Assembly: GCA_021773815.1 (NCBI GenBank)
Contig: JAJFJS010000130.1
Span: 1 to 34,458, forward strand
Length of the DNA: 34,458 nucleotides
Source: Gammaproteobacteria bacterium
GTDB taxonomy: Bacteria > Pseudomonadota > Gammaproteobacteria > Steroidobacterales > GCA-2729495
Direction: 5' to 3'
Shown: piece by piece, positions 3,228 to 29,766 of the stretch
How the letters are laid out: the number at the start of each line of letters is the position of its first letter
Numbering within the stretch: the first letter of the stretch is position 1
The notes under the pieces: model-generated
Told to the model about the DNA's origin: nothing
What the model saw: the letters and a program-made list of their open reading frames with translations, nothing else
Database searches by the model: none
Program-made: the position numbers and the translations under genes

Positions 3228-3256
3228 TGATATGCCCTGGGCTAAGAACAGCCAAT

Positions 3257-3454: not shown

Positions 3455-4882
3455 ATGATGACCGGTGCATTGAGCCGACGAAAGACACTGAAATGGCTCG
3501 CCGCAGCAGGCGGTGTTGCCGGATTGCCCGTCTCGCTGACCGGCTGCGGACGCGGCAAACCCGATGCCGACGTCATCGTGATCGGCGCCGGGCTGGCCGG
3601 ACTCAACGCGGCGGTCCTGCTGCAGGAACAGGGCGCCGACGTACTGCTCGTGGAAGGCAGTGAGCGAATCGGTGGCCGGGTATACACGCGCGATGATTTG
3701 CCGGGGCACCCGGATGCGGGCGGCAGCGAATTCAGCATCGACACCTATGCGCGGATCGTCGATCGCATCGATCGCCTCGGGCTGCGCGCCATACCCTGGC
3801 GCGGGGGCGGCATTGAATTCGGTTACCACGTCAACGGCCAACTCGTCCATCCGGACGCCTGGCCGACGTCGGAATTCAACGGCATCGAGAGCCCGGCACG
3901 CAATGTTCCGCCGTTGTTCCTGAGCGGCATGTATTTTCCGCGGCCGCTGCCGCTGGCGACGCCCGAGGCCTGGCTGGAGCCTTCTGCTGCGCAATTCGAC
4001 ATCCCGTTCAGTGATTTCCTGCGCCAGAACGGCGCCAATGCCGAGGCATTACGGTTGATCGAGGCGCGCGCCGAGGCAGATTCGCTCGACGATATCTCTG
4101 CGCTCTGGCAGATGCATGTCCAGCAGTTCAATGTGGCGTCCGGCGCGCTGACGCAACTGCGCAATCTCGAGGGCGGCATGAGTCGCTTCACGGATGCGAT
4201 GGCGAACCAGCTGAACCGGGAAGTGCGTCTGCGCGCGAAGGTAACCGGCATTCGTTCGGATCGAGACGGTGTCGAAGTGCAGGTTGTCGGCCGCCAATCG
4301 CTGCGCGCGCGTTTCGTCGTCTGCACGATGCCGTTGCCGTTGCTGCGTGACGTTGCATTCGATCCGCCGCTGCCGGCGCTGCAAGCCGGAGCAGTTGCGC
4401 AGACGCCGTACAGCGAGCACACCGATGTTTTCCTCGAAATCAAGGCGCCGTTCTGGGAAGAAGACGAGCTGCCGACATCGCTGTGGACCGACGGCAAGCT
4501 GGGCATCGTGCTGAAGATGAATTCGGAGGCCGAGCACGGTTACCTGTGGGTCGCCATCGCCGGCCGGTCCAGTATTCCGTGGCGGACGATGTCCGATGAC
4601 GACGTCATGGCCGCGGTCACGGCCGAACTGGCCCGCGTTCGGCCCAGCACGGCCGGCCGCGTCGCACCGATGGCTGTGCAGAACTGGAGCAGGCACCCGT
4701 GGACCCGCGGCCACCTGGCGTATCGCGGACCGGGACAGATCAGCAAGTTCGGCGCCGTGCTGACCGAACCGCATTTGCGTACGCATTTCGCGGGCGAGCA
4801 CACGGCAAAATTGACCATGGGCATGGAAGGGGCCATGGAGTCCGGGGAACGAGCAGCTTTGGAGATTCTGCTGCAAATCTGA
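3455..4882 (+). CDS. Tat-exported flavin-dependent amine oxidase family protein
   Basis: The protein has 475 residues. The N-terminus has a twin-arginine motif (SRRKTLKW, residues 7-14), a short hydrophobic stretch and a lipobox LTGC with Cys31, so it is probably exported folded and anchored as a lipoprotein. The FAD-binding dinucleotide fold begins at VIVIGAGLAGL (GAGLAG at residues 44-49), continues with LLVEGSERIGGRV, and closes with the C-terminal FAD block HFAGEHTAKLTMGMEGAMESGERAA typical of monoamine oxidase/polyamine oxidase relatives. It would oxidise an amine or related substrate with oxygen or another acceptor in the periplasm. It lies between the divergent tetR and the TonB receptor gene, 115 bases upstream of the latter, which suggests shared control. 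The start could equally be the second ATG at 3458. Confidence 0.85.
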   Translation: MMTGALSRRKTLKWLAAAGGVAGLPVSLTGCGRGKPDADVIVIGAGLAGLNAAVLLQEQGADVLLVEGSERIGGRVYTRDDLPGHPDAGGSEFSIDTYARIVDRIDRLGLRAIPWRGGGIEFGYHVNGQLVHPDAWPTSEFNGIESPARNVPPLFLSGMYFPRPLPLATPEAWLEPSAAQFDIPFSDFLRQNGANAEALRLIEARAEADSLDDISALWQMHVQQFNVASGALTQLRNLEGGMSRFTDAMANQLNREVRLRAKVTGIRSDRDGVEVQVVGRQSLRARFVVCTMPLPLLRDVAFDPPLPALQAGAVAQTPYSEHTDVFLEIKAPFWEEDELPTSLWTDGKLGIVLKMNSEAEHGYLWVAIAGRSSIPWRTMSDDDVMAAVTAELARVRPSTAGRVAPMAVQNWSRHPWTRGHLAYRGPGQISKFGAVLTEPHLRTHFAGEHTAKLTMGMEGAMESGERAALEILLQI

Positions 4883-4997
4883 TTGCAGCCGATGGGCTCG
4901 TGTTCGCGGGTTGATACACAGAGCGGCAACGCTGCAGGATGCGGCGAAGCCAACGGGGGGCAATGTTCTTGCCCGGAACATCCTTGGGAGAATGATC

Positions 4998-7523
4998 ATG
5001 AAGTTTGGGAAGACAACCGCGTCGAGCGGCTGTGTGGTTGGACTGGCGGGGCTGTTGTTCGCGGCACCCTGGGCATCGGTCTGGGCCGCAAACGGCGCGC
5101 AATCGACCAAAGAAGAAATCGTCATCACCACGCGTAAACGGGCCGAGAACCTCCAGAAGGTTCCGGTTGCCGTCGGCGTGTTCGACGATACGAGTATCGA
5201 CAAACTCAATATCACCGGCGCCGCGGACATCGGCAAGTATTCGCCGAGCCTGATTTTCGACCAGGGATTTGCGGCGCAGGACGTGCGCATCACAATCCGC
5301 GGACTGGCCCCGACGCGCGGGCGGCAGAATGCGGCCGTGCTCGTCGACGGTATCGACGTCACGGGACTGGCCATACAGTCGAACGGCGGGTCGCTGCTGA
5401 TCAATCCGCGGCTGTTCGACCTCGAGCGCATCGAGGTCGTCAAGGGCCCGCAGAACGCCCTGTATGGCCGGACGGCCTTTGCGGGCGCGATCAACTACAT
5501 CACGCGCAAGCCGACCGACGACCTGACGGCACAGGTATACACCGACCTCGGTGACAACAGCCGTTACGACGTTCGCGGTTCCGTGGCCGGGCCGCTGGTG
5601 CCGGGCGTGTTGCTCGGCGGACTCAGTGCGGCGGTGTGGACCGACGACGGGCACCACAGCAACTCGGCGACCGGCGGCGATATCGGCGGTGCCGAAGGCT
5701 GGGGCCTGTCCGGTTCGCTGTTGTGGAATATCTCCGAGCGGTTCAGCGCGAATGCGCGGGTTGAATACACCGATGACGAACTCGATCAATCGGCGTACAC
5801 CAGCATCACGCCGACCGTCATGGTGCCGTTGCCGGCCAACGCGTTCACGGGTGTCATCGCGCCGTCCGTCGCGTCGATCGAGTCGGTACGCGGCACGCTG
5901 CCGGACGGCGACAGCCGGGCCGTGACGCTGTCGGAAGATCCGCGCACCGGCGGAGACTACCCGGGTGTCGAGCGTGAACTCCTGCGCGCGTCGCTGATTC
6001 TCGATTACGACTTCGGGCCGGTCAGCCTGGTCTCGCTGACCGGTTACACGGATGGCGACACGTTCAGCTTTGAGGACGCGCGCCGCGAGGGCAGCGTTTC
6101 AGCCGCCGGCAAGACGACGGGCGCCGAGTTCTGGGCCGACGAGCAGACCGAGGTCATCAGCCAGGAACTGCGTCTGCAGTCCAACAGCGACGGTGCGCTG
6201 AACTGGACCGTCGGCGCTCTGTACTGGGAAGAGAACGTCGATTTTGTCGACGGCGGCGTGAACTGTATCGCCAACAGCCTGTTCTCGCCGTTTCCGCCGC
6301 CGGGCGGCATCGTGCCGGGCGCCAATTGCGGCGCGCCGATTGCGGCGATCACCGATGCGCTGCGCTTCGCCGATCCGTGGGAGCGCGACAGCGAGCACTG
6401 GTCGGTCTACGGTCTCGTCGACTGGGAATTCATCGAGACATTCTCGGTGGTTTTCGAGGCCCGCTACAGCGATGAGAAGATCACCGTGACAGGTCCCGAC
6501 CGGACGTCCGGCGGCGATCGTTCGCGGGCCATCGACCCGCGCGGGATTCTGTTCGGCACAGCGTTACAGCCGTCGTTCGGCAACATTACCGATTCGGTGT
6601 CCGACGATTTCTTCGCGCCGAAGGTCACGCTGCAGTGGGAACCGGCCGACAACAGCCTGTATTACATTTCTTGGGCGCAGTCGTTCAAGCCCAAGGGCAT
6701 CGCCATTGTCGGCGCGTTGTCCGGCTTCAATCCGCAAGGCAGCAGTTTCGACCAGGAAGAACTGCAGGTCTGGGAGATCGGCGCCAAGACGAGTTGGCTG
6801 GATAATCGCGTGATCCTGAACGGCGCGTTGTTCTACCAGGACTTCAGCGACAAGCAGGTCACGTCCCAGCGTCTCGATCCGGCCACCGGCCTGCTGTTCG
6901 CGGCACCGGTCAACGCGGCCTCGGCGGAGATCTATGGTCTCGAGCTCGATGCGAGCTGGCAGATCACCGAGGGCCTTGAGGTCTATGCGCAGTACACGTA
7001 TCTCGATTCGGAATACAAGGACTACAAACAGCTGAGCAAGGGTCCGGCGCCGATCGCCGACGCCGGCAATTGCACAGTGGTGCCTCCCGTCCCGCCGGAA
7101 ACGGATACCTTCTGCGAGATCGACCTGTCGGGTCGCGATCTCGAGTACGTGCCGGAGCATTCGCTGGTGGCGGGCGTCGAGTATCGCCAGCAGGTCGGCT
7201 CGTCAATGGAGTGGTTCGCCGGCATGAACTACATCTACCAGGATGAGCGCTATACCAGCGCGTTTAATATCGTCTCGTTCGACAGCTACTCGCTGTTCGA
7301 CTTCCGCGCCGGCTTCGGCGGCGAGAACTGGGAGGTACAGGGTTACGTCGACAACGCGTTTGACGACGACACGATCAAGTCGAGCTTCGGCAATACCTAC
7401 AACCAGGGGCTGCGCGTCGCCGCGCCGCCGTTCACGTTTGTACTGCCGCTGAACCAGACGCCGATCCTGCCCGATGGACGCGAAGTCGGCGTGCGGGCGA
7501 GATATCGGTTCGGTACGCGCTGA
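4998..7523 (+). CDS. TonB-dependent outer membrane receptor
   Basis: From ATG 4998 the protein has 841 residues. A GGGAG ribosome-binding site lies about 8 bases upstream of this ATG; the ATG at 4992 is too close to it. The signal peptide ends at VWA|ANG (residue 30). A TonB box (EEIVITT) follows at residues about 38-44. The plug domain contains VRITIRGLAPTRGR and IEVVKGPQNALYGRTAFAGA, both hallmarks of the family. The rest is the 22-strand barrel, ending in VGVRARYRFGTR. It imports a large or scarce ligand across the outer membrane using TonB energy; the ligand cannot be told from sequence. Its position behind the flavin oxidoreductase suggests that it may import the oxidase substrate. A terminator follows at 7616. 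Confidence 0.93.
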   Translation: MKFGKTTASSGCVVGLAGLLFAAPWASVWAANGAQSTKEEIVITTRKRAENLQKVPVAVGVFDDTSIDKLNITGAADIGKYSPSLIFDQGFAAQDVRITIRGLAPTRGRQNAAVLVDGIDVTGLAIQSNGGSLLINPRLFDLERIEVVKGPQNALYGRTAFAGAINYITRKPTDDLTAQVYTDLGDNSRYDVRGSVAGPLVPGVLLGGLSAAVWTDDGHHSNSATGGDIGGAEGWGLSGSLLWNISERFSANARVEYTDDELDQSAYTSITPTVMVPLPANAFTGVIAPSVASIESVRGTLPDGDSRAVTLSEDPRTGGDYPGVERELLRASLILDYDFGPVSLVSLTGYTDGDTFSFEDARREGSVSAAGKTTGAEFWADEQTEVISQELRLQSNSDGALNWTVGALYWEENVDFVDGGVNCIANSLFSPFPPPGGIVPGANCGAPIAAITDALRFADPWERDSEHWSVYGLVDWEFIETFSVVFEARYSDEKITVTGPDRTSGGDRSRAIDPRGILFGTALQPSFGNITDSVSDDFFAPKVTLQWEPADNSLYYISWAQSFKPKGIAIVGALSGFNPQGSSFDQEELQVWEIGAKTSWLDNRVILNGALFYQDFSDKQVTSQRLDPATGLLFAAPVNAASAEIYGLELDASWQITEGLEVYAQYTYLDSEYKDYKQLSKGPAPIADAGNCTVVPPVPPETDTFCEIDLSGRDLEYVPEHSLVAGVEYRQQVGSSMEWFAGMNYIYQDERYTSAFNIVSFDSYSLFDFRAGFGGENWEVQGYVDNAFDDDTIKSSFGNTYNQGLRVAAPPFTFVLPLNQTPILPDGREVGVRARYRFGTR

Positions 7524-7904: not shown

Positions 7905-8039
7905 GCCATGCTGCCCGTTGTGCCCCTCGTATCCGCACCTCGGTCCGGGCAGTACCCCGGGTCGGGTGCGCGGAATTTTATGCTCGGGGTACACTCGAAC
8001 GAAGAGTTGAACCGGACGGTCCGGATCGGGAGTGCAGGC

Positions 8040-9041
8040 ATGAAGGGCAGAATGAATCGGCGTACCGTGATGCAATCGGGCGCGGCGGCGGGGTTGGCGG
8101 CGCTTTGGTCGCCGGCGCCGCGGGCCGGCATCGGCGACGTGCCGCGCAGCGAATATGGATTCGCGACGACGGCCGACGAGGTCGTCGCCGGTCTCGACCT
8201 GTCCGGCAAGACGGCGCTGATCACCGGGTGCAACTCGGGGCTCGGCTACGAGTCAATGCGCGTTATGGCCGCGCGTGGCGCCCATGTTATCGGCACCGCG
8301 CGCACGCAGGCAAAAGCGGCCGAAGCGTGCGCGAGCGTCGCGGGCAGGACGACGCCGCTGGTTTGCGAACTGGCTGACTTCGACGCGGTCGTGGCCTGTG
8401 CCCGCCAGGTGCAGGCGCTGGATGTGCCGATCGACATCCTGTTGTGCAATGCCGGCATCATGGCGCTGCCGAAACTCGAGCAGGTCAATGGCATCGAGAA
8501 ACAGTTTGTCGTCAATCACCTGGGGCATTTCCTGTTGACCCGACACTTGCTGCCGCAAATTGTCGCGGCGCCCGCCGCGCGCATTGTCGTGCTGAGCAGC
8601 ATCGGCTATCGCAACGCGCCCGAAGCCGGCATCCAGTTCGATAACCTCAGCGGCGAACGGGATTATCGCCCGTTCACGGCCTACGGCCAGAGCAAGCTGG
8701 CCAATGCGCTGTTCTCGCGCGAGTTGAGTCGCCGGTATGCCGATGCCGGCATCGCCTCCAATGCGGTGCACCCGGGTATGGTCGCGACGAATCTCGGCCG
8801 CTACATCACCGGCAAGCCGCGGGATCCCGATGCGCCGCTGCGCAAGGGCTTCAAGACGCCCGAGCAGGGCGCCGCGACGCAGGTCTATGTTGCGGCCGAC
8901 CCGCGCCTGGCGGGTTTCAGCGGCTACTACTTCGAGGACTGCAACCCTGTCGAACCGGACGGGCCGCACATGGCCGACGATGCGCTGGCGCTCAGGCTCT
9001 GGCAGGTGTCTGAAGAACTGACGGCCGCGCACCTGTTCTGA
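8040..9041 (+). CDS. Tat-exported short-chain dehydrogenase/reductase
   Basis: The start at ATG 8040 is chosen because GGGAG lies 7 bases upstream and the twin-arginine motif follows at once (MNRRTVMQSGAAAGLAAL, residues 5-22). The protein has 333 residues. The cofactor site TGCNSGLG lies at residues 62-69, then LLCNAGIM, and the catalytic YGQSK has Tyr215 and Lys219. It belongs to the WWOX/retinol dehydrogenase-like SDR group. It would reduce or oxidise a carbonyl or alcohol with NAD(P), unusually with a Tat leader that implies periplasmic location with cofactor loaded in the cytoplasm. A clear paralogue lies at 22335-23381. The open frame extends upstream to 7908, but without a ribosome-binding site. 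Confidence 0.85.
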   Translation: MKGRMNRRTVMQSGAAAGLAALWSPAPRAGIGDVPRSEYGFATTADEVVAGLDLSGKTALITGCNSGLGYESMRVMAARGAHVIGTARTQAKAAEACASVAGRTTPLVCELADFDAVVACARQVQALDVPIDILLCNAGIMALPKLEQVNGIEKQFVVNHLGHFLLTRHLLPQIVAAPAARIVVLSSIGYRNAPEAGIQFDNLSGERDYRPFTAYGQSKLANALFSRELSRRYADAGIASNAVHPGMVATNLGRYITGKPRDPDAPLRKGFKTPEQGAATQVYVAADPRLAGFSGYYFEDCNPVEPDGPHMADDALALRLWQVSEELTAAHLF

Positions 9042-11382: not shown

Positions 11383-11403
11383 CCGCCGGTCGCGGCCGGT
11401 GGG

Positions 11404-13188: not shown

Positions 13189-13976
13189 TCGACCCAGGCG
13201 GCTGCATACAGGGAGACCGGATCGCGGGCGAAGCGCTCCCAGTCGCGCGCCTGCTCGTCGATCTCGGCCCGCGTCGCCCAACCCAGTTCTATATAGCGTG
13301 TCGCGAGCACCTCATCGATCAGGCGATTGTTGCGATCGACGTAGTCGGGCAGGTCGGTAGCGGCCGTGCGCTGGTCGAAAAACGCGTGTGAGTGTTCGAT
13401 GTGGCAGCCATTGTCGTGCAGCCATTCGCGCAGTCGCCGCCCGCCGCGCGATTCATGGCCGTGTTCGGCACGCACGCGCTGATAGAGTTCGATGCTGCGG
13501 ACCAGCTGCGGCGTCTGCGGATAGACGATATCGCCGCCGTGATCGAACTCCTTCATCGCGATGATGCCGCCGGGCTTCAACACGCGGACCATCTCGCGGA
13601 CGACTGCTGCCGGTCGGCTGACGCTGCCGAGTACCGCCGAGCAGAACACCGCATTGAAACAGGCGTCTTCAAACGGCAAGGAATAAACGTCGCCGGTCTC
13701 GAACTGCAGGTTCTCGACGCCGTGGTCGGCTGCCCAGGCAATCGCGGCGGCCATTTGCGCCCGTTCGCGGTCGATGCCAACGACGCGACCCGGGGACAGG
13801 TATTGGGCAAAACCAATCGTCAGGCTGCCGGGGCCGCAACCGCAATCGAGCAGGCTGCCGCCCGGTTCCAGGTACGGCAGCACGAACGCGCCGTGCACAT
13901 CGACCGTGCGGCTGCGCATCCAGTCCATCGCGCCGTCACCGTAACCGAGGACATAGTTTTCATCGTCATGACTCAT
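13134..13976 (-). CDS. Class I SAM-dependent methyltransferase with repeat-derived tail
   Basis: The 280-residue protein has motif I LLDCGCGPGSLT (residues about 42-53), the acidic VVGIDRERAQM block, FETGDVYSLPFED for motif II and VREMVRVLKPGGIIAMKEFD for motif III. It fits a UbiE/Methyltransf_11-type small-molecule methyltransferase in the cytoplasm. The C-terminus ends in two GRKPAEG repeats that belong to the minisatellite at 13017-13188 and are not part of the fold. It is divergent from the secreted protein gene at 14129. The acceptor is unknown. Confidence 0.87.
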   Translation of the reverse strand: MSHDDENYVLGYGDGAMDWMRSRTVDVHGAFVLPYLEPGGSLLDCGCGPGSLTIGFAQYLSPGRVVGIDRERAQMAAAIAWAADHGVENLQFETGDVYSLPFEDACFNAVFCSAVLGSVSRPAAVVREMVRVLKPGGIIAMKEFDHGGDIVYPQTPQLVRSIELYQRVRAEHGHESRGGRRLREWLHDNGCHIEHSHAFFDQRTAATDLPDYVDRNNRLIDEVLATRYIELGWATRAEIDEQARDWERFARDPVSLYAAAWVEAVGRKPAEGYGRKPAEG

Positions 13977-14128
13977 TGCGGCTCATGATAATCGGATCGA
14001 GCCGGTATGCCGAATACGGCACCGACATCGTCCGTGTCGGTGCCGGTGCCGCGTTCGTTCGGACCCGGTTCGTCCTGCGGGCACTCTGCGGGTACACTAC
14101 CGGGAACGGATCCATCGGGAGAATTTCT

Positions 14129-14830
14129 GTGAAAGTTACTTCGTGCGTCTCGCTGCTCACTGCGTTGCTGACTGTCTCTGTTTCCGTCCCCGCCCGCAGC
14201 GACGCACTGCCGGACCCGACCTCGACCGGGTTCTGCCAGACCGTGCAGCAGATCTTGTCCAGTACGGATCGAGCGGGCGAGAACACGCTGTTTACGGACA
14301 TGCCCGAATACCGTCATTCAAAACCGTCTGCCGATCCGCACCGGATCTACCAGGTCGTGACCTACGCTGGGCAACAGCCGATCATGGTGTCGTGCAAGGT
14401 CAAGGGCGCGGCCCACTTGCGTTCGGCGTACGGTGAGGCGGCCGCCGGGGAACAGCTGAACTGCCCTGAGATCACGCGGCGCGTGCGCACCCAGGCGGCC
14501 GGCGAACTGCGCGCCGCAGGCAATGCGGAGGCGGCGCGGGCCGCCGAAGCGATCGTCATCGATGACGATGAACCGTATATCACCGGTCAGCAGTATCTGT
14601 CCGAGTTCGCGCTGAGCTACCGGGGTGACGACGGCGCCATCCATGTCAGTTCGCCGGGATTGTTTCACGACTATGACAGCTGGACGACCTGGATTTTGCC
14701 CGCGCGCTTTGTCGGTCAGACTTATTGCCATATCGCGACGGCCGCCTACATCAAGGCGCTCGCGACCGGTGCGACCGAACCGGGTACGATGATCGGCACC
14801 GGCGACGATGCGCCGGTGACGCCTGAATAG
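14129..14830 (+). CDS. Secreted protein of unknown function
   Basis: The start is a GTG at 14129 with CGGGAG 7 bases upstream. The 233-residue product begins with a signal peptide (MKVTSCVSLLTALLTVSVSVPARSDA). The mature part has paired cysteines (FCQTVQQ, MVSCKVKG, LNCPEI, TYCHIA) that could form disulfides, fitting a periplasmic location. I do not recognise a family. It converges on the EF-G gene, with a strong hairpin in between. The open frame continues upstream to 13976, but that part overlaps the divergent promoter region. Confidence 0.72.
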   Translation: MKVTSCVSLLTALLTVSVSVPARSDALPDPTSTGFCQTVQQILSSTDRAGENTLFTDMPEYRHSKPSADPHRIYQVVTYAGQQPIMVSCKVKGAAHLRSAYGEAAAGEQLNCPEITRRVRTQAAGELRAAGNAEAARAAEAIVIDDDEPYITGQQYLSEFALSYRGDDGAIHVSSPGLFHDYDSWTTWILPARFVGQTYCHIATAAYIKALATGATEPGTMIGTGDDAPVTPE

Positions 14831-14888
14831 CCCGGAGATCTTGCCAGCCGGCCAACAGCGGGCCGGTCGTTGAGATAGCCTGCCAATC

Positions 14889-14918
14889 ACCGCGGGCCGG
14901 CACGAAGCCGGCCGCGGT
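14889..14918. terminator. GC-rich hairpin between convergent genes
   Basis: The sequence pairs CCGCGGGCCGGC with GCCGGCCGCGG around ACGAA, with one bulged G. It lies 6 bases beyond the EF-G stop codon on the minus strand and 59 bases after the stop of the secreted protein gene. No T run follows on either side, so it may act as a transcript end stabiliser or a weak terminator. Confidence 0.4.
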
Positions 14919-14923
14919 ATGCG

Positions 14924-17008
14924 TTACTTGGCTGCCTTGCGCGCCTGCGTCTCGGCGATGACATCTTCCGCGACGTTTTTCGGGCACGGCGAGTAGTGCG
15001 AGAATTCCATCGAAAACTGGCCGCGGCCCGACGTCATCGTGCGCAGGTGGCCGATGTAGCCGAACATCTCGCTCAGCGGCGCATCGGCCTTGACGCGGAC
15101 GCCGGTGACGCCGATTTCCTGTGACTTGATCATGCCGCGCCGCCGGTTCAGATCACCGATGACGTCGCCGACGTTGGCCTCCGGCGAGTACACGTCGACC
15201 TTCATGATCGGTTCGAGCAACTGCGGGGCGGCCTTCGGGACCGACTGGCGATACGCGGCGCGGGTCGCCTGTTCGAAGGCCATCGCCGACGAGTCGACCG
15301 CGTGGTACGCACCATCCTGCAGCGTGAACTTGATGTCGAGCAGCGGGAAGCCGGCCAGTGTGCCTTCGCTCATACAATTGCCGAACGCCTTCTCGATCGC
15401 GTTCCAGTACTCGCGCGGGACGTTGCCGCCCGTAACCGTGCAGTCAAACACGTAGCCGCTGCCGGTGTCCGCCGGTTCGATCGTGTAGTCGATTCGGCCA
15501 AACTGTCCGGAGCCGCCCGTCTGTTTTTTGTGCGTGTAGCTGTCGGTGACGGATTGCGTGATCGTCTCGCGGTAGGCGACCTGCGGCTTGCCGACCTCGA
15601 CCTCAACATGGTGCGTGCGGCGCAGGATGTCGACCTTGATGTCGAGGTGCAGTTCGCCCATGCCCATCATGATGGTTTCACCCGAGTCCTCATCCGTCAT
15701 AATGCGGAACGAAGGATCCTCCTGGGTCATCTTGTTGAGCGCGACGCCGAGTTTCTCGGTGCCGGCCTTGTCCTTCGGTGCGATCGAGATCGAAATGACC
15801 GGATCGGGGAAGACCATCGGTTCGAGTGTCGCCGGTTTCTTGACATCGGAGAGCGTGTGTCCCGTCTGTGTCTGTTTCATGCCGAGCAGTGCGACGATGT
15901 CGCCGGCCTGTGCTGAGTCCCGTTCTTCGCGCGAATTAGCGTGCATCTCGACGATGCGGCCGATGCGCTCGGTCTTGCCCGTGAAAGTGTTCAGCACGCT
16001 GTCGCCTTTCTTCAGGCGTCCGGAATAGATCCGGGTAAAGGTCAGGGCGCCGAAGCGGTCATCCATGATCTTGAACGCCAGCGCCCGCAGCGGGCCGTCG
16101 GGATCGACGATCGCGAAACCGCCCGTCTTGTTGCCCTCGAGGTCCATCTCCGGCTGCGGTGGGACCTCGGTCGGGCAAGGCAGGTAATCGACGACGCCGT
16201 TAAGCATGTTCTGTACGCCCTTGTTCTTGAACGCCGAGCCGCAATAGGTCGGGAAAAAGTCAAGCTTCACGGTGCCGGTGCGAATGCATTTCTTGATGTC
16301 ATCGATCGACGGCTCGTTGCCGTCGAGATAGGCTTCGAGCAGGGCGTCGTCATGCTCGAGCGCCATCTCGATCATCTGCTCGCGATATTCCTCGACCTTG
16401 GCCTTCATATCCTCGGGGACATCGACGATTTCATAGTTCTGCGGCTCGCCGGAGTCATCCCAGACCCAGGCCTGACGCATCAGGATATCGACGACACCTT
16501 TAAAGTCATCTTCGACGCCGATCGGCAGCGTCATGACCAGCGGTTTCGCGCCGAGCACCTGTTTGATCTGCTTGACGACCCGATAGAAGTCGGCGCCCAT
16601 GCGGTCGAGCTTGTTGACGAAGATGATACGGGCGACCTTCGAGTCATTGGCATAGCGCCAGTTTGTCTCGGATTGCGGCTCCACGCCGCCGGATCCGCAG
16701 AACACACCGACGCCGCCGTCGAGTACCTTGAGTGAGCGGTAGACTTCGATCGTGAAGTCGACGTGCCCCGGCGTGTCGATAATGTTCAGGCGGTGTCCGT
16801 CCCATTCGCAACTGGTCGCGGCGGACTGGATCGTGATGCCACGTTCCTGTTCCTGCTCCATGAAGTCAGTGGTCGCCTCGCCGTCGTGCACCTCGCCGAG
16901 TTTGTGGATCTTTCCCGTCAGCTTGAGGATGCGCTCCGTCGTCGTGGTCTTGCCGGCGTCGACGTGGGCAAAGATGCCGATGTTTCTGTATAAGCTAAGG
17001 TCCGTCAT
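14924..17008 (-). CDS. fusA: Elongation factor G, stand-alone paralogue type
   Basis: The 694-residue protein has all EF-G domains. G1 is AHVDAGKTT (residues 14-22), then [19 protein letters not shown] and NKLDRMG, and the C-terminal block is [28 protein letters not shown]. It promotes GTP-driven translocation on the ribosome or ribosome recycling. The N-terminus [20 protein letters not shown] and the features [16 protein letters not shown] and [18 protein letters not shown] match the second EF-G type seen in Vibrio and Pseudomonas rather than the str-operon copy of E. coli. It has no rpsL, rpsG or tuf neighbours here, as expected for the paralogue. The ATG at 17008 is unambiguous. Confidence 0.95.
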
Positions 17009-17446
17009 GTCAGTTCTTCACGCTCAGTTCAGTTCGCCAAAATGGGCCATAGCCGCTTGCGCGGCACAGCATCGCAGTCGGGGGAGTACTCTCTATAGAA
17101 CACTAACGAGTGCCGTCTGGCCTCAGCGGTTCGGCGCTAACTCGTTGCCGGAGCGGGGGAATTCACGATCGTCACGCCCGAGCCGTGACGCCGAATGACC
17201 GGCAATCCGGGCGCGGATAATACCAAGAGTCGGTAGTCCCGGCCACCGTGTTGACAACATTGCCGCGAACCCGGTGCTGCAAGGCGTTTGCCGTCTGCGG
17301 CGGTCCCCGATGGCCTGGTCCGGTGCGGAGGCCGGATCGGCCCGGCCGCCGGAACCGGGCGTCGACCCGGGATCCTGCCGGTCGGCCAAATCCGGTATCG
17401 TGGACCCGGACCAGGACATCAATCCCGGACAAGACTGGAGCGAACC
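17009..17446. other. Intergenic region, EF-G leader on one side, methyltransferase leader on the other
   Basis: No gene is supported in these 438 bases. A TATAGA on the minus strand (17092-17097) could be a -10 box for the EF-G gene, but the -35 position is poor. The right end carries GGAG for the gene at 17447. The stretch 17280-17400 is very GC-rich without a clear coding frame. Confidence 0.4.
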
Positions 17447-22334: not shown

Positions 22335-23381
22335 TCAGGCGGCGCGTGGGGACGGCGCGGACGTCGTCCCGGAAAGATACTCGGCTGTCAGTTCCACGGA
22401 GACCTGCCAGAGCCGCGTGGCCATGTCGGTGTTTTCGGTATGCCCGCCGGGCCGATGCGGATTGCAATGGTTGAAAAAGTAACCGCTCGCCTTCGCCAGC
22501 GCCGGACTCGTGGCGACATAACAAGTGGTTGCCGCGCCCTGGGCAATCGTCTTCGTGAACGATCCGCCGAGGTTTTCCAGCGCCCAGGTCTTCCAGCGCG
22601 GCATGTGGCGACCGAGATTGGTCGGGATGACGCCGGGACGCAGCGCGTTGGCCGTGGCATTCGTCGCGCGCAGCCGCCGGGTCAGTTCGAGCGTAAACAG
22701 GACATTGGCGAGTTTCGACTGACCGTAGGCGCGGCCCGGATCGTAGCTGCGTTCGCCGGACAGGTTGTCGAACTCAATGCCCCTTTCCGGCGCCTGGCGG
22801 GTTGCCGCGCCGCTGCTGACGTTGACGATGCGCCCCTGTGGGGCCGCGACGACGCGCTCGAGCAGATGGTTGACGAGCACAAAGTGACCGAGGTGATTGA
22901 CGAAAAACTGTTTCTCGATGCCGTCAACCTGTTCGAGTTGCGGCAGCTCCATGATGCCGGCATTGCAGATCAGCATGTCCAGGGACACGGTCTGTGTTCG
23001 GAGCCATTCGGCGGCGGCGACCACCGAATCGAGGTCCGTCAGTTCGATAACGACCGGCGTCGCGCGGCCGTCGATGCGGCGGCACGCGTCCGTGGCCTTT
23101 TGCAGCGTTCGACCCGCGCCGAATACATGCGCGCCGCGCAGGGCCAGCACACGCATGGTTTCGTAGCCGATGCCCGAATTGCAGCCGGTGACGAGCGCGG
23201 TCTTGCCCGTCAGGTCGAGGCCCGCCGTGACCTGCTCGGCCGTCGCATCGGCGTCGAACGGTCCGATCGGTGCATCCGGCGGCAGCGGCAGCGGATCGCC
23301 GGCGCAGGCGGTGAGACCGGGTGCCATGACGACTGCGGGCAGGGCGCGCAGCAGCCGGCGGCGATTTGGCGAATGAGACAT
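22335..23381 (-). CDS. Tat-exported short-chain dehydrogenase, lipoprotein-like
   Basis: From ATG 23381 the protein has 348 residues. The leader has three arginines (PNRRRLLRAL, residues 5-14), a hydrophobic stretch and LTAC with Cys26, so it is probably a Tat lipoprotein. The cofactor motif is TGCNSGIG, followed by LICNAGIM and catalytic YGQSK. It is a close relative of the SDR at 8040-9041, sharing GLDLxGKTALxTGCNSGxGYE and other blocks. No ribosome-binding site is obvious. The TetR-type palindrome at 23459-23472 lies 78 bases upstream, between this gene and the chelatase-like gene. Confidence 0.84.
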   Translation of the reverse strand: MSHSPNRRRLLRALPAVVMAPGLTACAGDPLPLPPDAPIGPFDADATAEQVTAGLDLTGKTALVTGCNSGIGYETMRVLALRGAHVFGAGRTLQKATDACRRIDGRATPVVIELTDLDSVVAAAEWLRTQTVSLDMLICNAGIMELPQLEQVDGIEKQFFVNHLGHFVLVNHLLERVVAAPQGRIVNVSSGAATRQAPERGIEFDNLSGERSYDPGRAYGQSKLANVLFTLELTRRLRATNATANALRPGVIPTNLGRHMPRWKTWALENLGGSFTKTIAQGAATTCYVATSPALAKASGYFFNHCNPHRPGGHTENTDMATRLWQVSVELTAEYLSGTTSAPSPRAA

Positions 23382-23514: not shown

Positions 23515-24981
23515 ATGAAAAGGTTTCTGCTCGTCAGTCTCGCGCTGGTCGTCGTTGTCGTCGCCGGCGGTTACGCGACGTTCAAGATCAAGAACGCGAA
23601 GCATGGGCCGGATGTCTATGCGATGTACCAGTCCCAGGACGGAATTCCCGAAGGCCGAATCGGCGTGTTCTCGATCGGCCTGTCGACGACCGAAGATTTC
23701 GATCCGACCTGGTGGCACAACATCTTCAATCACATTGCTCATGCACGCATCCCGTGGCCGTTCCGGATTGCGGCGCTGGCCGATCGCGGCGTCGCGCTGA
23801 TGGATCCGGACCGCGATTATTCGACCGAACGATTCGAGCCGACGTCGCTCGTCGACCGTTTCGGCAGCGACGTTGACATGGATGCGACGCCTTATATCGA
23901 GCGCTACCGTCAGGGCTCGGTCGAATGGATACCACCGAAGGAGTCGATCCACCTCGACACCGGTTACTTCGTCTATACGGACCGGCAGGACGGCATCCCG
24001 ACGACGGCCGGCAAGTCGATAGGTTATGCGCGCTTGTGGTATTGGGGCCGCGGCATCGAGGGACAGAAGATCCCGGCTCAGCACCAGCAGCAGGTCGTCA
24101 ACGATTACGCGGTCGGGCGGCTCGCCGAGAAATACCCGGACGTTCTCTTTCAGCAGGCCGATACGATGAAGCCGTGGCTCTGGCGCAGGAAGATCTTCGA
24201 CATGCTCGACGCGGGTATCGAGACCATCGTGTTGTCTTCACCGTTGGTCGTGTATTCCGGCTACGAGGACTTTGACAACGGGTTTCTGCACAGTATCGAG
24301 TACATCGAGGAATGGGAGCAGGCTAACGGGCGCGATATCAAGATCGTCATTGCACCGCCGCTCGGCCACTTCAAGCCGATTCGCGACGGTTACCTGCTGA
24401 TGCTCAGGGACAAGCTCGATACGCTGCCCGCCGGCGTCAGCGTCAAGATGGTCTGGTCCGTGCACGGCATGCCGTGGCGGGAGTTTCAGAATGAACCGTG
24501 GCTTGAGATCGCACCTGCTTACCGCGATGTGCTCGTCGAGGAGTCGAAGGCGTTGCTCGCGACATACGATTTCGAGCGCTTCGAGGTTGTCGTCAGTCAG
24601 GATCACTTTGCCGACCACTACTGGGACCCGGATCACCTGTCGCTGGCGACGAACAAGGCCTACCTGGACGGCGTGGCGGATGGGTTCGATCATGTGCTGA
24701 ACCTGCCGATCGAGTTCTATAACGAAAACACCGACACGTTGTTCTATCACGCGATGGTCAACTACGAAAATTTCCCCGGCTATTCGGTCTATGACCGCAT
24801 CGCGTATCCGAAATCGGAATGGGACCGGCCATACACAAAGCATTTCGAGATCGACGGCACGCAGATCGATTACCTCGGCGTGCCGGCCGGGCCCCGCTAT
24901 TCGAAATACGTCGGCCAGTCGATGTTCGATTCCTGGGATGCAGTGCTGTCGCGGCGGATCGTACGCGCGGCCGCCCGCTAG
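23515..24981 (+). CDS. Membrane-anchored ferrochelatase-like protein, copy 1
   Basis: The protein has 488 residues from ATG 23515. Residues about 4-19 are a membrane anchor (FLLVSLALVVVVVAGG). The rest resembles a diverged ferrochelatase fold. EGRIGVFSIGL corresponds to the first strand (GVLLLNLG in HemH). SSPLVVYSGYEDFDNG matches the PLYPQYS.ST.G segment. VKMVWSVHGMPW matches SYHGIP, with His317 in the place of the HemH catalytic His194. HVLNLPIEF with ENTDTLF matches the terminal P..F..D..ETL segment, with Asp407 where HemH has Glu264. Metal binding is therefore possible but altered. It is a tandem paralogue of the next gene, 38 bases downstream. I have no search to confirm the fold. Confidence 0.6.
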   Translation: MKRFLLVSLALVVVVVAGGYATFKIKNAKHGPDVYAMYQSQDGIPEGRIGVFSIGLSTTEDFDPTWWHNIFNHIAHARIPWPFRIAALADRGVALMDPDRDYSTERFEPTSLVDRFGSDVDMDATPYIERYRQGSVEWIPPKESIHLDTGYFVYTDRQDGIPTTAGKSIGYARLWYWGRGIEGQKIPAQHQQQVVNDYAVGRLAEKYPDVLFQQADTMKPWLWRRKIFDMLDAGIETIVLSSPLVVYSGYEDFDNGFLHSIEYIEEWEQANGRDIKIVIAPPLGHFKPIRDGYLLMLRDKLDTLPAGVSVKMVWSVHGMPWREFQNEPWLEIAPAYRDVLVEESKALLATYDFERFEVVVSQDHFADHYWDPDHLSLATNKAYLDGVADGFDHVLNLPIEFYNENTDTLFYHAMVNYENFPGYSVYDRIAYPKSEWDRPYTKHFEIDGTQIDYLGVPAGPRYSKYVGQSMFDSWDAVLSRRIVRAAAR

Positions 24982-25019
24982 CCGTTGAGCCGACAGGCGA
25001 TTAATCGGAGAGACAGGAT

Positions 25020-26528
25020 ATGAAAGGATTCGGGAAGGTCCTGATCGGTGTCGTCGTCGTGGCGGCGTTTGCCGGCTACGCAATGGTGCAAAATCAGCCG
25101 CCGCAGCTGGCACAGCCGGACTACTACGAGTACTACATCAACCAGGACTCGCGGCCCGAAGGGCGGGTCGGCATTTTCGTCACGCATCTCATCATGCCGG
25201 AGAACTATCGCGAAGAAGACTTCTTCATGATGGCGCGCAAGTCGCTGCAGTACATCCCGTGGCCGATCCGCCGGCTCGTGCAGGCCGACAAGGGCGTCGT
25301 GTTGCTGGACCGGCAGCGGTTTTACGAGTTCGAGGAGTTCACGCCGACGGATCTGGTCGATCACCACGGCAGCAGCATCGATATCGACGGCGTGGCGTAC
25401 ATCGATAAATACCGCAACGGCGAGATAGAGTGGATGCCGCCCGGCGCTCAGCATCTGAGCCACGGTGCGTTTCTGTACAGCGGGCGGCCGGGTGGCGAAA
25501 TGGCGTCGGCGCTGAAGCTCGCCGCCAAGGCGCGCAACTACTATTACGCGCCGGGCGCCGGCTTCTCCGACGGCCGCGTGCCGCACGAGGCAGGCAACCG
25601 GCACATCGTCTACAGCGCGATGGAAAAGATCGAAGCGAAATACGGGGATATCCCGTGGGCCTGGGTCACGGCCGACAACCGGACGCTGGCCCGGCAGGCG
25701 TTGTTTGATTTGCTGGATCAGGGCATCGATACGCTGGTCATCGCCGCGCCGCGTCCCGTCTATTCACACCACGAGGAATTCAACGGCAGCATCAAGCATA
25801 CGATGCACTATTTACACGAATGGCAGGAAGCGAACGATCATAAAGAGATAAAGATGATCATCTCGCCGGAGCTGTCATTCTTCGAGCCGATGTTTGCGAC
25901 GCACCCGGCGATCATTCGCGATAACCTCGCCGATTTCCCCGCGGGGGCATCGGTTAAACTCGTACTGTCGGTGCACGGAATGCCGTGGGACAACGTGCCG
26001 CACGAGGGATGGATCAAGCTGTCGCCGAAGTTTGTCGATCGTGCGGTCGAGGAGGGACGCAAGGTACTCGCGGAGTATCCGTTCGGTCGCACCGAGGTGG
26101 TTCGGTCGCAGGATCACTTTGCGGATTCGCACAGCGATCCGCAGGGCAAATACCTGTCCACCAACCAGGCGTTCTGGGAGGGTATTCGTGACGGCTACGA
26201 TTATGTACTGAATGTGCCGCTCGAGTTCTTCGCCGAGAATACCGATACGATGTTTTTCCATGACATGGCAAACTTCGAGGGTTTCGATGACTACGATGTC
26301 TATCGAACCGTCGAGTACACGGACTGGTCAGAGCCGTATCGCAAGCGCGTCGTTCAGGACGGCACGACCGTGATTTACGGCGGCCTCGCTGCCGGGCACT
26401 TCAGCGATCCGATCATTGAGGCATTCTTCCAGGCGCTGGATTCCATCCTTTCGCAGGACGCAGTATCCCGACAGGCGGAAACGGCGCCCCAGGCGAGTGT
26501 CGCGGCATCAATAACGCAGCATCGGTAA
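25020..26528 (+). CDS. Membrane-anchored ferrochelatase-like protein, copy 2
   Basis: The protein has 502 residues, starting at ATG 25020 with CGGAG about 10 bases upstream. The membrane anchor is VLIGVVVVAAFAGYAMV. It shares the layout of copy 1: EGRVGIFVTHL, the LYPQYS-like AAPRPVYSHHEEFNG, LSVHGMPW with His319, SQDHFAD and VLNVPLEFFAENTDTMFFHDM with Asp409. The His-Asp distance is 90 residues in both copies. The C-terminal tail of about 30 residues (RQAETAPQASVAAS) is not found in copy 1. The two are probably co-transcribed and may form a heterodimer or act on related substrates. A GC-rich hairpin overlaps the stop codon. Confidence 0.6.
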   Translation: MKGFGKVLIGVVVVAAFAGYAMVQNQPPQLAQPDYYEYYINQDSRPEGRVGIFVTHLIMPENYREEDFFMMARKSLQYIPWPIRRLVQADKGVVLLDRQRFYEFEEFTPTDLVDHHGSSIDIDGVAYIDKYRNGEIEWMPPGAQHLSHGAFLYSGRPGGEMASALKLAAKARNYYYAPGAGFSDGRVPHEAGNRHIVYSAMEKIEAKYGDIPWAWVTADNRTLARQALFDLLDQGIDTLVIAAPRPVYSHHEEFNGSIKHTMHYLHEWQEANDHKEIKMIISPELSFFEPMFATHPAIIRDNLADFPAGASVKLVLSVHGMPWDNVPHEGWIKLSPKFVDRAVEEGRKVLAEYPFGRTEVVRSQDHFADSHSDPQGKYLSTNQAFWEGIRDGYDYVLNVPLEFFAENTDTMFFHDMANFEGFDDYDVYRTVEYTDWSEPYRKRVVQDGTTVIYGGLAAGHFSDPIIEAFFQALDSILSQDAVSRQAETAPQASVAASITQHR

Positions 26529-26770: not shown

Positions 26771-27784
26771 ATGGATATCGATATTATTCTCGAACCGGAT
26801 GTGACGCCGGACCAACTCACCGAGCTCGGCCTGCTGGCCGAAAGCTGCGGCATCAACCGGATCTGGGTGCAGAACTACGCGGCGGCGCGCGACGCCTTCC
26901 TGAGCCTCGTGCCGTTGGCGCTGGCCTCGACGCGCATCAAGCTCGGCATCATGGTTGTCAGTCCCTGGGAGATGCATCCGCTGAAGATGGCCAATGCCCT
27001 GCTGACGCTCAACGAGTACAGCAAGGGCAGGGCGTCGCTGTGCGTCGGCGGCGGCGCTGAGTGGAACGGCATCATGTGCATTCCCGTCGAGCGGCGCGTC
27101 CGCGCGGTCCGCGAGACAACCGAACTGCTCAAGGCCGCCTGCGGCGAGCACAAGGTTACGAATTATCAGGGCGAGATGTACAAGGCCAGCCGATTTTCCG
27201 CCGAGTGGGCGAAAGACACGCCGCCGCTGATCTTCACGGGCGCCGGCCAGGAGCAGATGATCCGGATGAGCACGAAGAAGGCCGACGGCATCGTGCTCAG
27301 CGACGCCGTGCCGGCGTTCGCGGCGCAGGCCATGGGCTTCGTCCGCGAGACGCTGCCCGAGCGCGACGCATCGGTCGGCCCGTTTATCGCGAGCAATTTC
27401 TGGGCATGGCACGTCAAGGCGGACCGCGAGGCGGCGCTGAAGGAGGCGCGGCGCGAGTTGATCATCCGCAGCTGGCTCGGCATGCACCATATCCACACGT
27501 TCATGAATGAAGAAGACAGCTGGTATGTGCAGAAGAATAAGCAACCGTTTATCAATGCGTACCGGGACCGGTCCGGCGATATCAAGGGCGTGCCGCAGCG
27601 AATCATTGATGAATTGATCGAGGGCATCACGACGTCCGGCGACCTGACCGAGATGGACAAGCACATCGCGCGGATCGGGGAATTCAAGGCAGCGGGACTC
27701 GATGAGTTGGCCCTGCGCCTGCACGATGACCCGGCCGATGCGATACCGGTGATCGGTGAGCACATCGTGCCGGCCATGCGCTGA
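26771..27784 (+). CDS. LLM class (luciferase-like) flavin-dependent oxidoreductase, copy 1
   Basis: The 337-residue protein has the luciferase-like TIM-barrel pattern. It starts MDIDIILEPDVTPDQL, then LGLLAESCGINRIWVQNYAAARDAF, RIKLGIMVVSPWEMHPLKMANALLTLNEYSKGRASLCVGGGAEW, PPLIFTGAGQEQMI and KADGIVLSDAVPA. It would use FMN or F420 to reduce or oxygenate a small substrate in the cytoplasm. The ATG at 26771 has CGGAG 9 bases upstream. It lies 242 bases after the chelatase-like pair and 52 bases before its paralogue. No F420-specific residue can be decided by eye. Confidence 0.85.
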   Translation: MDIDIILEPDVTPDQLTELGLLAESCGINRIWVQNYAAARDAFLSLVPLALASTRIKLGIMVVSPWEMHPLKMANALLTLNEYSKGRASLCVGGGAEWNGIMCIPVERRVRAVRETTELLKAACGEHKVTNYQGEMYKASRFSAEWAKDTPPLIFTGAGQEQMIRMSTKKADGIVLSDAVPAFAAQAMGFVRETLPERDASVGPFIASNFWAWHVKADREAALKEARRELIIRSWLGMHHIHTFMNEEDSWYVQKNKQPFINAYRDRSGDIKGVPQRIIDELIEGITTSGDLTEMDKHIARIGEFKAAGLDELALRLHDDPADAIPVIGEHIVPAMR

Positions 27785-27836: not shown

Positions 27837-28847
27837 ATGCAGGTCGATATCGTACTGGAATCGAAGATTGGCCCGGAGCAGTTCAAGGAACTGGGATTGC
27901 TCGCCGAGGAACTGGGGTTTCACGGTATCTGGGTACAGAACTATGCGCGCGCTCCCGATGCCTTTATGACCGCGATGCCGCTCGCGCTGGCCTCGAAGCG
28001 TATTCGGGTCGGTGTGGCCGTGATTTCCGCCTACGAGATGCATCCGTTGAAAATCGCCAACGCGGTGCTGACGCTCAACGAGGCCGCGCAGGGTCGCGCG
28101 AGCGTCGTGCTGGCCGGCGGCGGCGAATGGCCCGGTGTCATGAAGGTGGAGATCGGCAAGCGCGTGGCGCGGCTGCGCGAGGCGCTGGAACTCATCAAGC
28201 TCGCGTTCGGCGACAAGGTCGTCAACTACGACGGCGAGGCCTACAAGGCGCAGGCGTTCACGACGTCGTGGAAGACGCAGTCGCCGCCGCTGCTGTATGC
28301 CGGCACCAACGGCCCGAACATGTCGGTCATGGCGACCGGCATCGCCGATGGCATCATGATGAGTGACGTGCAGCCGACGATGTTCGACTGGACCCTGCCG
28401 ACGCTGAAAAAGGCCCTCGCCGATGCCGGGCCCGCCGCGAAGGACTTTCGCCTGACAAATTTCCTGTCCTGGCACGTCAAGGAAGACCGCGAGGCGTCGC
28501 TGTGGGAGTCGCGGCGCGAGTTGATTATTCGTGCCTGGCTGGAGCCGCAGTGGATCTCGTCGTTCCTGAGCCCCGAGGACGTCGCCACCGTCCGCGCGAA
28601 CGTCTGGCCGTTCCTGACGGCGTTTCGCGCGCGAACCGGGGACATCGAAGGCGTCGATCCGCGCATCGTCGATGCCCTGGTCGAGGGCCTGACGTGTTCC
28701 GGCGACCTCGGCGACCTGGATCGGCATATCGAGCGGCTCAAGAAATACGAGACGGCCGGATTCACGGAGATCGCGCTGGGCCTGCAGGACGATCCCGCCG
28801 ACTCGATGCGGATGCTCGCCGAACGCGTCCTGCCGAAATTTCAGTAG
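27837..28847 (+). CDS. LLM class (luciferase-like) flavin-dependent oxidoreductase, copy 2
   Basis: The 336-residue protein, from ATG 27837 behind AGGGGACAG, is a clear paralogue of the gene before it. It has MQVDIVLESKIGPEQFKELGLLAEELGFHGIWVQNYARAPDAF, the RIRVGVAVISAYEMHPLKIANAVLTLNEAAQGRASVVLAGGGEWPGV block and PPLLYAGTNGPNMSVMA. The shared VQNYA, EMHPLK and GGGxEW motifs show a local duplication. It probably forms an operon with copy 1. The stop is 7 bases from the stop of the convergent aldo/keto reductase gene. The frame is open further upstream to 27756, but only this start has a leader of normal type. Confidence 0.85.
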   Translation: MQVDIVLESKIGPEQFKELGLLAEELGFHGIWVQNYARAPDAFMTAMPLALASKRIRVGVAVISAYEMHPLKIANAVLTLNEAAQGRASVVLAGGGEWPGVMKVEIGKRVARLREALELIKLAFGDKVVNYDGEAYKAQAFTTSWKTQSPPLLYAGTNGPNMSVMATGIADGIMMSDVQPTMFDWTLPTLKKALADAGPAAKDFRLTNFLSWHVKEDREASLWESRRELIIRAWLEPQWISSFLSPEDVATVRANVWPFLTAFRARTGDIEGVDPRIVDALVEGLTCSGDLGDLDRHIERLKKYETAGFTEIALGLQDDPADSMRMLAERVLPKFQ

Positions 28848-28854: not shown

Positions 28855-29766
28855 TCAGAGCGCGTCGAAGAACGCCTCCTGCTTCTTGCGCAGCGCTGCA
28901 TCCGGCAGCCGCCCGTACGCCGCGCCGATGTTGTCGCGTGCGTGACGAGGCTTGGTCGTGCCCGGGATCGCGCAGGTAACCGCGGGGTGTGAGACGACAT
29001 ATTTCAGCAGGAACTGCGCCCAGCTCCGGCAGTCGAATTCCGCGGCCCAGTCCGGCAGCGGCCGGTCGCCCAGCGCCGAGAACAATCGGCCGCGGCCGAA
29101 CGGCAGGTTGACGAGGACGGCGATGCCCTTGTCGATGGCCAGCGGCAGGATGCGGTCGGCGGCCGCGCGATTGCCGAGCGAATAATTGACCTGGATAAAC
29201 TCGAGCGGTTCGCGCTGCATTAGCGTCAGCATCCGCGGAAAGTCCTCGTCGTGTGACGTCGTGATGCCGATGTAACGGATACGCCCGTCCTGTTGCCACT
29301 CGCGCATCTCCGGCAGCATCGTCTCGGCGCCGCGCATATTGTGCGACTGCACCAGGTCGAGCCGATTCGTCTGCAGTTTTTCGAGCGAATCGCGCATGCG
29401 CTGCAGTCCGCGTTCCCGTTTTTCGAGTTCGACCTTGGTCGCGACGAACAGGTCGTCGCGAATGCCGAGGTCGGCGATGATCGTGCCGAGTGCCTGTTCC
29501 GAGCTGCGGTAGACAGGGGCCGTGTCGATCAGTTCGCCGCCGAGCTCGTGAAACAGGCGCAGCGTCTCGCGCAGCGTCGCCAGATCGTCACCGGTCCGGT
29601 ACCGATTCGTGCCGATGCCGATGACCGGCAGCGTCTCGTCATCGCCGGCCGGGATCGGTTTGCGGATCGGACCGTCTGGCTCCGCCGCCCACGCGTGCTG
29701 GCCGACGCTCAGCGAGACGCCGGCACCGGCGATGATGCGGAGTAGTTGGCGTCGGCGGATATCCAT
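28855..29766 (-). CDS. Tat-exported aldo/keto reductase
   Basis: The 303-residue protein opens with a twin-arginine leader (RRRQLLRIIAGAGVSLSVGQHAWA) and cleavage at HAWA. The (beta/alpha)8 reductase follows: LIDTAPVYRSSE (Asp and Tyr of the catalytic tetrad), FVATKVE (Lys), LVQSHNMRG (His), then IRYIGITTSHDE and FIQVNYSLGNR. The catalytic residues appear intact. It would reduce an aldehyde or ketone with NADPH. The Tat leader suggests periplasmic use with a preloaded cofactor. It converges on the LLM pair. Its start is preceded by the recQ-like 26-base repeat about 50 bases further upstream. Confidence 0.87.
   Translation of the reverse strand: MDIRRRQLLRIIAGAGVSLSVGQHAWAAEPDGPIRKPIPAGDDETLPVIGIGTNRYRTGDDLATLRETLRLFHELGGELIDTAPVYRSSEQALGTIIADLGIRDDLFVATKVELEKRERGLQRMRDSLEKLQTNRLDLVQSHNMRGAETMLPEMREWQQDGRIRYIGITTSHDEDFPRMLTLMQREPLEFIQVNYSLGNRAAADRILPLAIDKGIAVLVNLPFGRGRLFSALGDRPLPDWAAEFDCRSWAQFLLKYVVSHPAVTCAIPGTTKPRHARDNIGAAYGRLPDAALRKKQEAFFDAL

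Follow-up and report, generated by a model that had tools for sequence, protein, structure and literature searches.

What do two adjacent genes encode whose products resemble ferrochelatase but carry a membrane anchor, and what would such proteins do? The question is raised by contig JAJFJS010000130.1 of a Gammaproteobacteria bacterium (assembly GCA_021773815.1), which was analysed over its full length of 34,458 nucleotides (the window). An earlier note on this DNA had described the two proteins, here P0001 and P0002 (Table 1), as tandem paralogues and had proposed a new chelatase-fold family working at the membrane. Both open reading frames (ORFs) were found on the forward strand with 38 bp between the genes, and the proteins are 39% identical over 491 columns, nearly their full length. 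Each has the single N-terminal hydrophobic span that the note had reported. The GVF/GIF strand, the VYS, SVHGMP and P-(I/L)-E-F..ENTDT blocks and the spacing of 90 residues between His and Asp (317 to 407 and 319 to 409) are also found as described there. We show below that the pair belongs to a membrane-anchored branch of the ferrochelatase superfamily. As to function, we favour, with a probability of roughly one half, a periplasmic chelatase-type protein that acts on scavenged tetrapyrroles, with both the substrate and the direction of the reaction putative.

Fold, homology and predicted location of the protein pair

AlphaFold2 models were built with the family alignment (P0001, pLDDT 92.6 and pTM 0.89; P0002, pLDDT 90.7 and pTM 0.88). 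When the P0002 model is compared with the PDB using Foldseek, the best 44 rows are all ferrochelatases, with a top E-value of 1.3e-8. VIA-align superposes the two models on yeast ferrochelatase with Z-scores of 24.1 (316 residues, 3.4 Å, 7l78_A) and 24.9 (317 residues, 3.5 Å, 1l8x_A), and human ferrochelatase is also matched by both at Z about 24-25; the sequence identity in the structural ferrochelatase rows is about 10-15%. The next structural matches of the two models are SirB (Z 16.7 and 17.6), FetB (14.6 and 15.2) and the cobaltochelatase CbiK-P (13.9 and 15.0). SirB, FetB, periplasmic CbiK, CbiK and CbiX all score from 17.6 down to 12.4, below the ferrochelatases. Ferrochelatase is the clear best match for both proteins, and the chelatase fold is confirmed by the structure comparison that the note had suggested.

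The fold match bears most of the weight, since hhalign between the profile of the family and 13 canonical HemH proteins gives a probability of only 48.8% (E 1.8e-4), weak by itself. Using the Pfam Ferrochelatase family (PF00762, curated cut-off 27), the window proteins score 13.3 bits (E 0.041) and 20.4 bits (E 0.00029), both below the cut-off. Neither phmmer with P0002 nor hmmsearch with a profile of 36 family members gave a relevant match among the PDB sequences. When the 36 members are scanned singly, Ferrochelatase reaches E <= 0.01 in 28 of 36 (best 8.5e-13) and no other Pfam family does, and several homologues exceed the curated cut-off, for example with 49.4 and 42.5 bits. These matches, together with the fold Z-scores of about 24-25 for both proteins, place the likeness to ferrochelatase beyond chance. 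Fold and homology are settled: both proteins are distant true relatives of ferrochelatase in the class II chelatase superfamily, and the family forms a branch of the ferrochelatase superfamily with a membrane anchor. Its closest structural match, by a wide margin, is ferrochelatase rather than CbiK. The earlier statement that the proteins are not HemH itself holds as well, given the hydrophobic anchor, the greater length, the Asp in place of Glu and the Pfam scores below the cut-off.

The catalytic residues were compared in an alignment of 36 members, which leaves out split, truncated and near-identical copies (L034, L035, L036 and two further G006 members among them). In the hhalign alignment, SVHGMP of the family is paired with SAHGLP of HemH and EFFAENTDT with AFVSEHVET. 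For the human numbering, one canonical HemH was aligned to 2qd3_A and counted by hand, as the chain index plus 64. By this alignment His319, Phe403, Glu406, Asn407 and Asp409 of P0002 correspond to human His263, Phe337, Asp340, His341 and Glu343, and in P0001 His317 falls on the catalytic His263 and Asp407 on the catalytic Glu343. All five residues (P0002 numbering) are invariant in 36 of 36 homologues, the HG.P histidine and the ENTDT aspartate, which had been singled out for such a check, among them. In the 13 canonical HemH proteins the equivalents of His263 and Glu343 are present in every case, and the position of His341 holds His in five and Cys in eight. The position of human Glu343 is Asp in all 36 family members versus Glu in all 13 HemH, so Asp does replace the catalytic Glu as had been noticed. 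The claim that His and Asp lie in the active site stands as an alignment with His263 and Glu343, and their placement is to that extent predicted.

According to passages of a ferrochelatase review (PMC9133952), every His263 variant studied is inactive, and the human E343D variant significantly affects a step following chelation. The family retains the base and the acidic helix, with a substitution whose human counterpart affects events after metal insertion.

A hydrophobic N-terminal span is present in all 36 members, preceded by a short and mostly basic tail. Cysteine is scarce: after the span there is none in 23 of the 36 and one in seven more. The cysteine share of the family is 0.19% versus 1.57% in the 13 HemH proteins (four to eight cysteines each); in the host genome it is 1.36% in 15 cytosolic-type and 0.71% in three exported-type proteins. 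The span and the scarce cysteine favour a signal-anchor with a periplasmic domain, and the chelatase domain is thus predicted to lie most likely in the periplasm, with a single N-terminal helix as its anchor in the inner membrane. The idea of a protein working at the membrane is kept in this refined form, with the domain probably facing the periplasm. The charge rule for topology was also tried, and the mixed flanking charges do not decide the side.

Distribution of the family and heme synthesis in its carriers

A scan of 84,980 species genomes with two patterns gave 32 loci in 30 genomes, which is a lower bound since both patterns are strict. The distribution is patchy. The record titles of the carriers name Gammaproteobacteria, Chromatiales, Rhodospirillaceae and other Alphaproteobacteria, Thermodesulfobacteriota and one Deltaproteobacteria, and in the order of the carrier G013 the family occurs only in G013 itself among the 120 genomes drawn. 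The host genome has a third copy, P0005, on contig C96 (43% identical to P0001). G001 and G002 have tandem pairs as well, one genome (G006) contains as many as five full-length copies, and the members diverge to 26% identity. In a tree of 35 members (the partial L033 was left out of it and of alignment A4), P0001, together with L007 and L008, and P0002 are separated by a branch supported at 98/100, and P0005 is in yet another clade; the placement of L060, whose branch is very long, is unsure. The supported branch rules out a recent tandem duplication, and the pair is the product of an old one.

Three genes of the heme pathway were covered, HemE (PF01208 at E <= 1e-20, a family that also takes in some methyltransferases), HemC and HemH, in genomes many of which are incomplete assemblies and whose relatives are not independent. 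Among the carriers, host included, HemE is found in three of 31 and HemC in 21 of 31. Canonical HemH is found in 15 of 30, the host, with none, not being counted. Fourteen of these 15 are without HemE, and five of the 14 are also without HemC: G017 (a single-contig genome), G022, G023, G024 and G027. As a control, PF01208 was found in 112 of the 120 genomes from the order of G013 (one by a 97-bit match only), so the HemE search is sensitive there; G013 is among the eight without. The HemH proteins of the Rhodospirillaceae-titled G013 and the gammaproteobacterial G017 are 67% identical, and neither genome shows HemE (L112, L117, L113 and L115 are the HemH loci of G013, G029, G017 and G024). G013 and G017 would thus have retained or acquired HemH in the absence of the steps that supply its substrate.

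The host family (37 genomes, G000 and G031-G066, three of them single-contig) has canonical HemH in four genomes (one split, one partial), HemE in six and the heme-copper oxidase family PF00115 in 35, and the other families of the host order (23 genomes) have HemH in 20 and HemE in 20. In the host genome itself, which is 98.95% complete, there is no canonical HemH and no HemC match; it contains three PF00115 genes and three PF01208 genes at about 400 bits. One of the latter, when scanned, obtained 369.8 bits and passes the NCBI hemE cut-off of 302.95. The host family is probably a respiring, heme-auxotrophic lineage without a standard route to heme. For the carriers, the data support that they respire, mostly without HemE, and seem unable to make their own heme.

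Fourteen genomes of the host family have a match to the chelatase family. The host is confirmed by the family itself and nine are coordinate-identical to genomes searched with the family alignment, while the other four (G031, G057, G061, G063) have weak PF00762 matches alone, two over the cut-off and two under. In G078, a PF00762 match of 27.6 bits lies in a frame of 597 amino acids.

A nearly complete host genome with three PF00115 and three HemE-type genes and no canonical HemH could suggest that the anchored proteins are replacement ferrochelatases completing the cell's own heme synthesis. We consider this very improbable. With 28 of 31 carriers lacking HemE, and no HemC found in the host, an internal substrate is unlikely. 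Besides, half of the carriers (15 of 30) also have canonical HemH, 20 of the 37 host-family genomes have neither protein, and the domain appears to be extracytoplasmic.

Apart from the chelatase genes, a host locus (L072, C9:8500-28000) contains at 2568-17050 a cluster in which three HemE paralogues and a HemD-like gene are accompanied by genes for a TonB receptor, a dipeptide-type binding protein and two FAD proteins similar to the geranylgeranyl reductase family (one was scanned and is below the family cut-off). A similar cluster in G002 (L114) again has three HemE genes, here with two HemD-like genes and three genes for FAD proteins.

Gene neighbourhood and proposed function

If the proteins act on scavenged tetrapyrroles in the periplasm, their ligand would be a tetrapyrrole of external origin, whose metal they would insert, remove or exchange, or which they would present to a transporter. 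Proton exchange with the ring nitrogens would fall to His319, and the acidic helix (Glu406, Asp409) would serve as the proton carrier. If the comparison with human E343D holds, Asp409 may alter a step after chelation, and the product may be held for hand-over. Whether the metal would move in or out cannot be told from the sequence.

The neighbourhood was examined in 34 stretches (the 32 loci, the window and the third copy), some truncated and some near-identical, for example L021 and L036. In favour of this role, envelope transporters are frequent there. On C96 the order is an ABC ATPase, two permeases, the third copy, a cytochrome c', a cytochrome c and an alpha/beta-hydrolase. An ATPase 73-79% identical to this one is upstream of the family gene in 12 loci. 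It adjoins the gene in 11 of them, and in L017 two permeases lie between, the same spacing as at the third copy. The two permeases beside the third copy are DUF3526 ABC-2 permeases (L004 7718-11423), and similar genes are present in L017 and L035; a literature search on DUF3526 with an ABC transporter found nothing. The 12 loci bear alphaproteobacterial record titles, and the high identity to the ATPase of the host third copy suggests transfer between classes. In five gammaproteobacterial loci a HlyD-type gene and a gene that we take to be of the FtsX type are located downstream.

These ABC transporters would also suit a non-catalytic periplasmic carrier of heme or porphyrin that hands the tetrapyrrole to the adjoining ABC or other transporter. 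The human E343K variant, which is inactive but binds and co-purifies with porphyrin according to part of the same review (PMC9133952), points in the same direction. A carrier has no obvious need for a catalytic His and an acidic pair kept in 36 of 36 members, and we find this explanation rather unlikely.

Table 1. Genes of the window discussed in the text, with positions in the window, strand and remarks. SDR, short-chain dehydrogenase; LLM, luciferase-like; Tat, twin-arginine translocation.
Feature	Position	Strand	Remarks
FAD amine-oxidase-family protein	3455..4882	+	Tat-like signal, lipobox by eye
TonB-dependent receptor	4911..7523	+	
SDR	7908..9041	+	58% identical to SDR 22335-23381; RR motif by eye (NRRTVMQSG), failed scripted Tat test
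SDR	22335..23381	-	Divergent neighbour of the pair; Tat-like signal, lipobox by eye; RRRLLRALPAVVMAPGLTAC
P0001, first ferrochelatase-like protein, 488 aa	23515..24981	+	Hydrophobic anchor 4-22, chelatase fold ~46-482, His317, Asp407
P0002, second ferrochelatase-like protein, 502 aa	25020..26528	+	Hydrophobic anchor 5-23, chelatase fold ~47-482, His319, Asp409
LLM oxidoreductase 1	26771..27784	+	242 bp downstream of the P0002 gene
LLM oxidoreductase 2	27837..28847	+	48% identical to LLM 1
Aldo/keto reductase	28855..29766	-	Tat-like signal; RRQLLRIIAGAGVSLSVGQHAWA

No transporter directly adjoins the pair in the window, where it is flanked by an SDR and two LLM oxidoreductases (Table 1). The start of this SDR was assigned at the ATG before RRRLL, while the ORF as listed extends to 23516. 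Close homologues of it (80-81% identity) flank the tandem pair in L007 and L008. Over all stretches, alpha/beta-hydrolases are found downstream of the family gene in 11 loci and upstream in seven. A scripted Tat test on 16 window genes was passed by the FAD amine oxidase, the SDR and the aldo/keto reductase (66 of 3200 shuffled proteins pass), and P0001 passes too, because of its KR start. In the promoter and terminator scan, promoter-like sites were not above shuffles and terminator-like sites were within one standard deviation of them. Elsewhere in the window (3455-9041), a TonB receptor has a Tat-type FAD amine oxidase on one side and on the other an SDR paralogous to the one flanking the pair, and this stretch is perhaps one uptake-and-processing module.

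With so many hydrolases and oxidoreductases as neighbours, the ferrochelatase fold may instead have been recruited for a ligand other than a tetrapyrrole, for example in the uptake or breakdown of a hydrophobic natural product together with the neighbouring alpha/beta-hydrolases, SDR, LLM and aldo/keto reductases. In L011 the family gene comes after three genes that we presume to be MMPL, DUF1302 and DUF1329, and the Asp for the catalytic Glu and the Asn at the His341 position would also fit such a ligand. However, the His-acid set of the active site is kept in 36 of 36 members despite the divergence to 26% identity, the family is linked to lineages without HemE, and in G010 a canonical HemH is found between an LLM oxidoreductase (37% identical to window LLM 1) and an SDR (68% identical to the window SDR; Tat-lipoprotein-like start by eye). 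G010 thereby sets a true ferrochelatase in the context that elsewhere holds the pair, in one case. On balance a non-tetrapyrrole ligand is an unlikely but serious alternative, and of the rivals to the tetrapyrrole role it is the one that we take most seriously.

Several observations weigh against a chelatase acting on scavenged tetrapyrroles. The hydrolases, SDR, LLM and the transport genes of L011 also fit the catabolism of another hydrophobic compound, and the Asp for Glu and the Asn at the His341 position could mean that chelation is altered or lost. Over the 15 residues that follow the span, 22 of 36 members have a positive net charge, ten are neutral and four are negative. The loss of HemE is a property of whole lineages and the carriers are not independent points. 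The 20 host-family genomes with neither canonical HemH nor a family match show that the ferrochelatase-like protein is not needed for this lifestyle. A general negative association between the family and HemE was also considered and rejected, as it holds between lineages and not inside the host family, where HemE is found in four of 14 genomes with a family match and in two of 23 without.

A wider version of the tetrapyrrole role, which we hold quite tentatively and think improbable, is that some marine heme auxotrophs have a periplasmic tetrapyrrole pathway of exported heme-enzyme copies, the ferrochelatase-like pair and the HemE and HemD-like proteins of G010, by which heme, porphyrin or products of chlorophyll would be scavenged and then remodelled ahead of import. 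This version rests on export-type N-termini of HemE and the HemD-like protein in one relative, G010. The HemE copies of the host genome and of G002 have no export-type N-termini in the listed ORFs. The G010 locus (L116 on C81, 6255-11436) contains HemE with a Tat-like RRRFVKG and a HemD-like protein whose N-terminus resembles a signal peptide, along with a TonB receptor and a Fur-like regulator, the signals and Fur being assigned by eye.

Significance and comparison with known systems

Extracytoplasmic class II chelatases are known and HemH is known, but we did not find a membrane-anchored, periplasm-facing family of the HemH lineage described in open-licence papers. Searches of the open-licence literature, which do not cover subscription journals, gave no paper on a periplasmic, extracytoplasmic, membrane-anchored or secreted ferrochelatase, and none joining heme auxotrophs, ferrochelatase and marine bacteria. 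The main text of a survey of 497 putative ferrochelatase ORFs (PMC8529089) does not contain the terms transmembrane, periplasm or signal peptide. To our knowledge, how environmental heme auxotrophs handle scavenged tetrapyrroles is mostly open. Heme auxotrophy is common in several habitats, marine sediment included, as stated in part of a 2024 study (PMC11139205). If our reading is right, a periplasm-facing, anchored relative of ferrochelatase would be a candidate enzyme for handling scavenged tetrapyrroles, with a natural Asp where human E343D disturbs a step after chelation. The protein can be cloned and is confidently modelled, and a single residue, His319, gives a handle for a test.

The closest known system is ferrochelatase itself, HemH/PpfC and CpfC (PF00762; TIGR00109). 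It shares with the family the two-domain chelatase fold (Z about 24, with about 317 residues aligned), the catalytic His, the Phe at the position of residue 337 and the acidic helix at the same place. Bacterial HemH is cytoplasmic and is not known to have an N-terminal signal anchor, whereas the family has an N-terminal anchor and a length of about 490-500 residues that includes additional segments. The family also has Asp where ferrochelatase has Glu343 and Asn at the place of His341, and its identity to ferrochelatase is about 13%.

The CobN-like heme dechelatases HmuS/BtuS of Bacteroidota are reported to deal with a related problem, iron from scavenged heme. They are of a different chelatase class, and the CobN-like fold differs from the class II chelatase fold.

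FetB of Porphyromonas gingivalis, presumably the protein also called IhtB, is not known to belong to the HemH lineage; its structure (9b86) is a chain of 261 residues and scores far below ferrochelatase (Z 14.6 and 15.2). It resembles the family in that its chelatase fold acts on porphyrins at the cell surface, in a bacterium without a complete heme pathway, according to part of one paper (PMC13227078). In a passage of a review, FetB is said to make Mn-protoporphyrin by porphyrin metal exchange and possibly to remove iron (PMC13402209). The cobaltochelatase CbiK-P of Desulfovibrio vulgaris (2xvx, 2xvz) is a periplasmic class II chelatase according to its PDB title. It is shorter, belongs to the CbiK lineage and is not known to have a membrane anchor, and its Z-scores (13.9 and 15.0) are likewise far below those of ferrochelatase. 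By analogy, FetB and the periplasmic CbiK would be the nearest functional precedents for the family.

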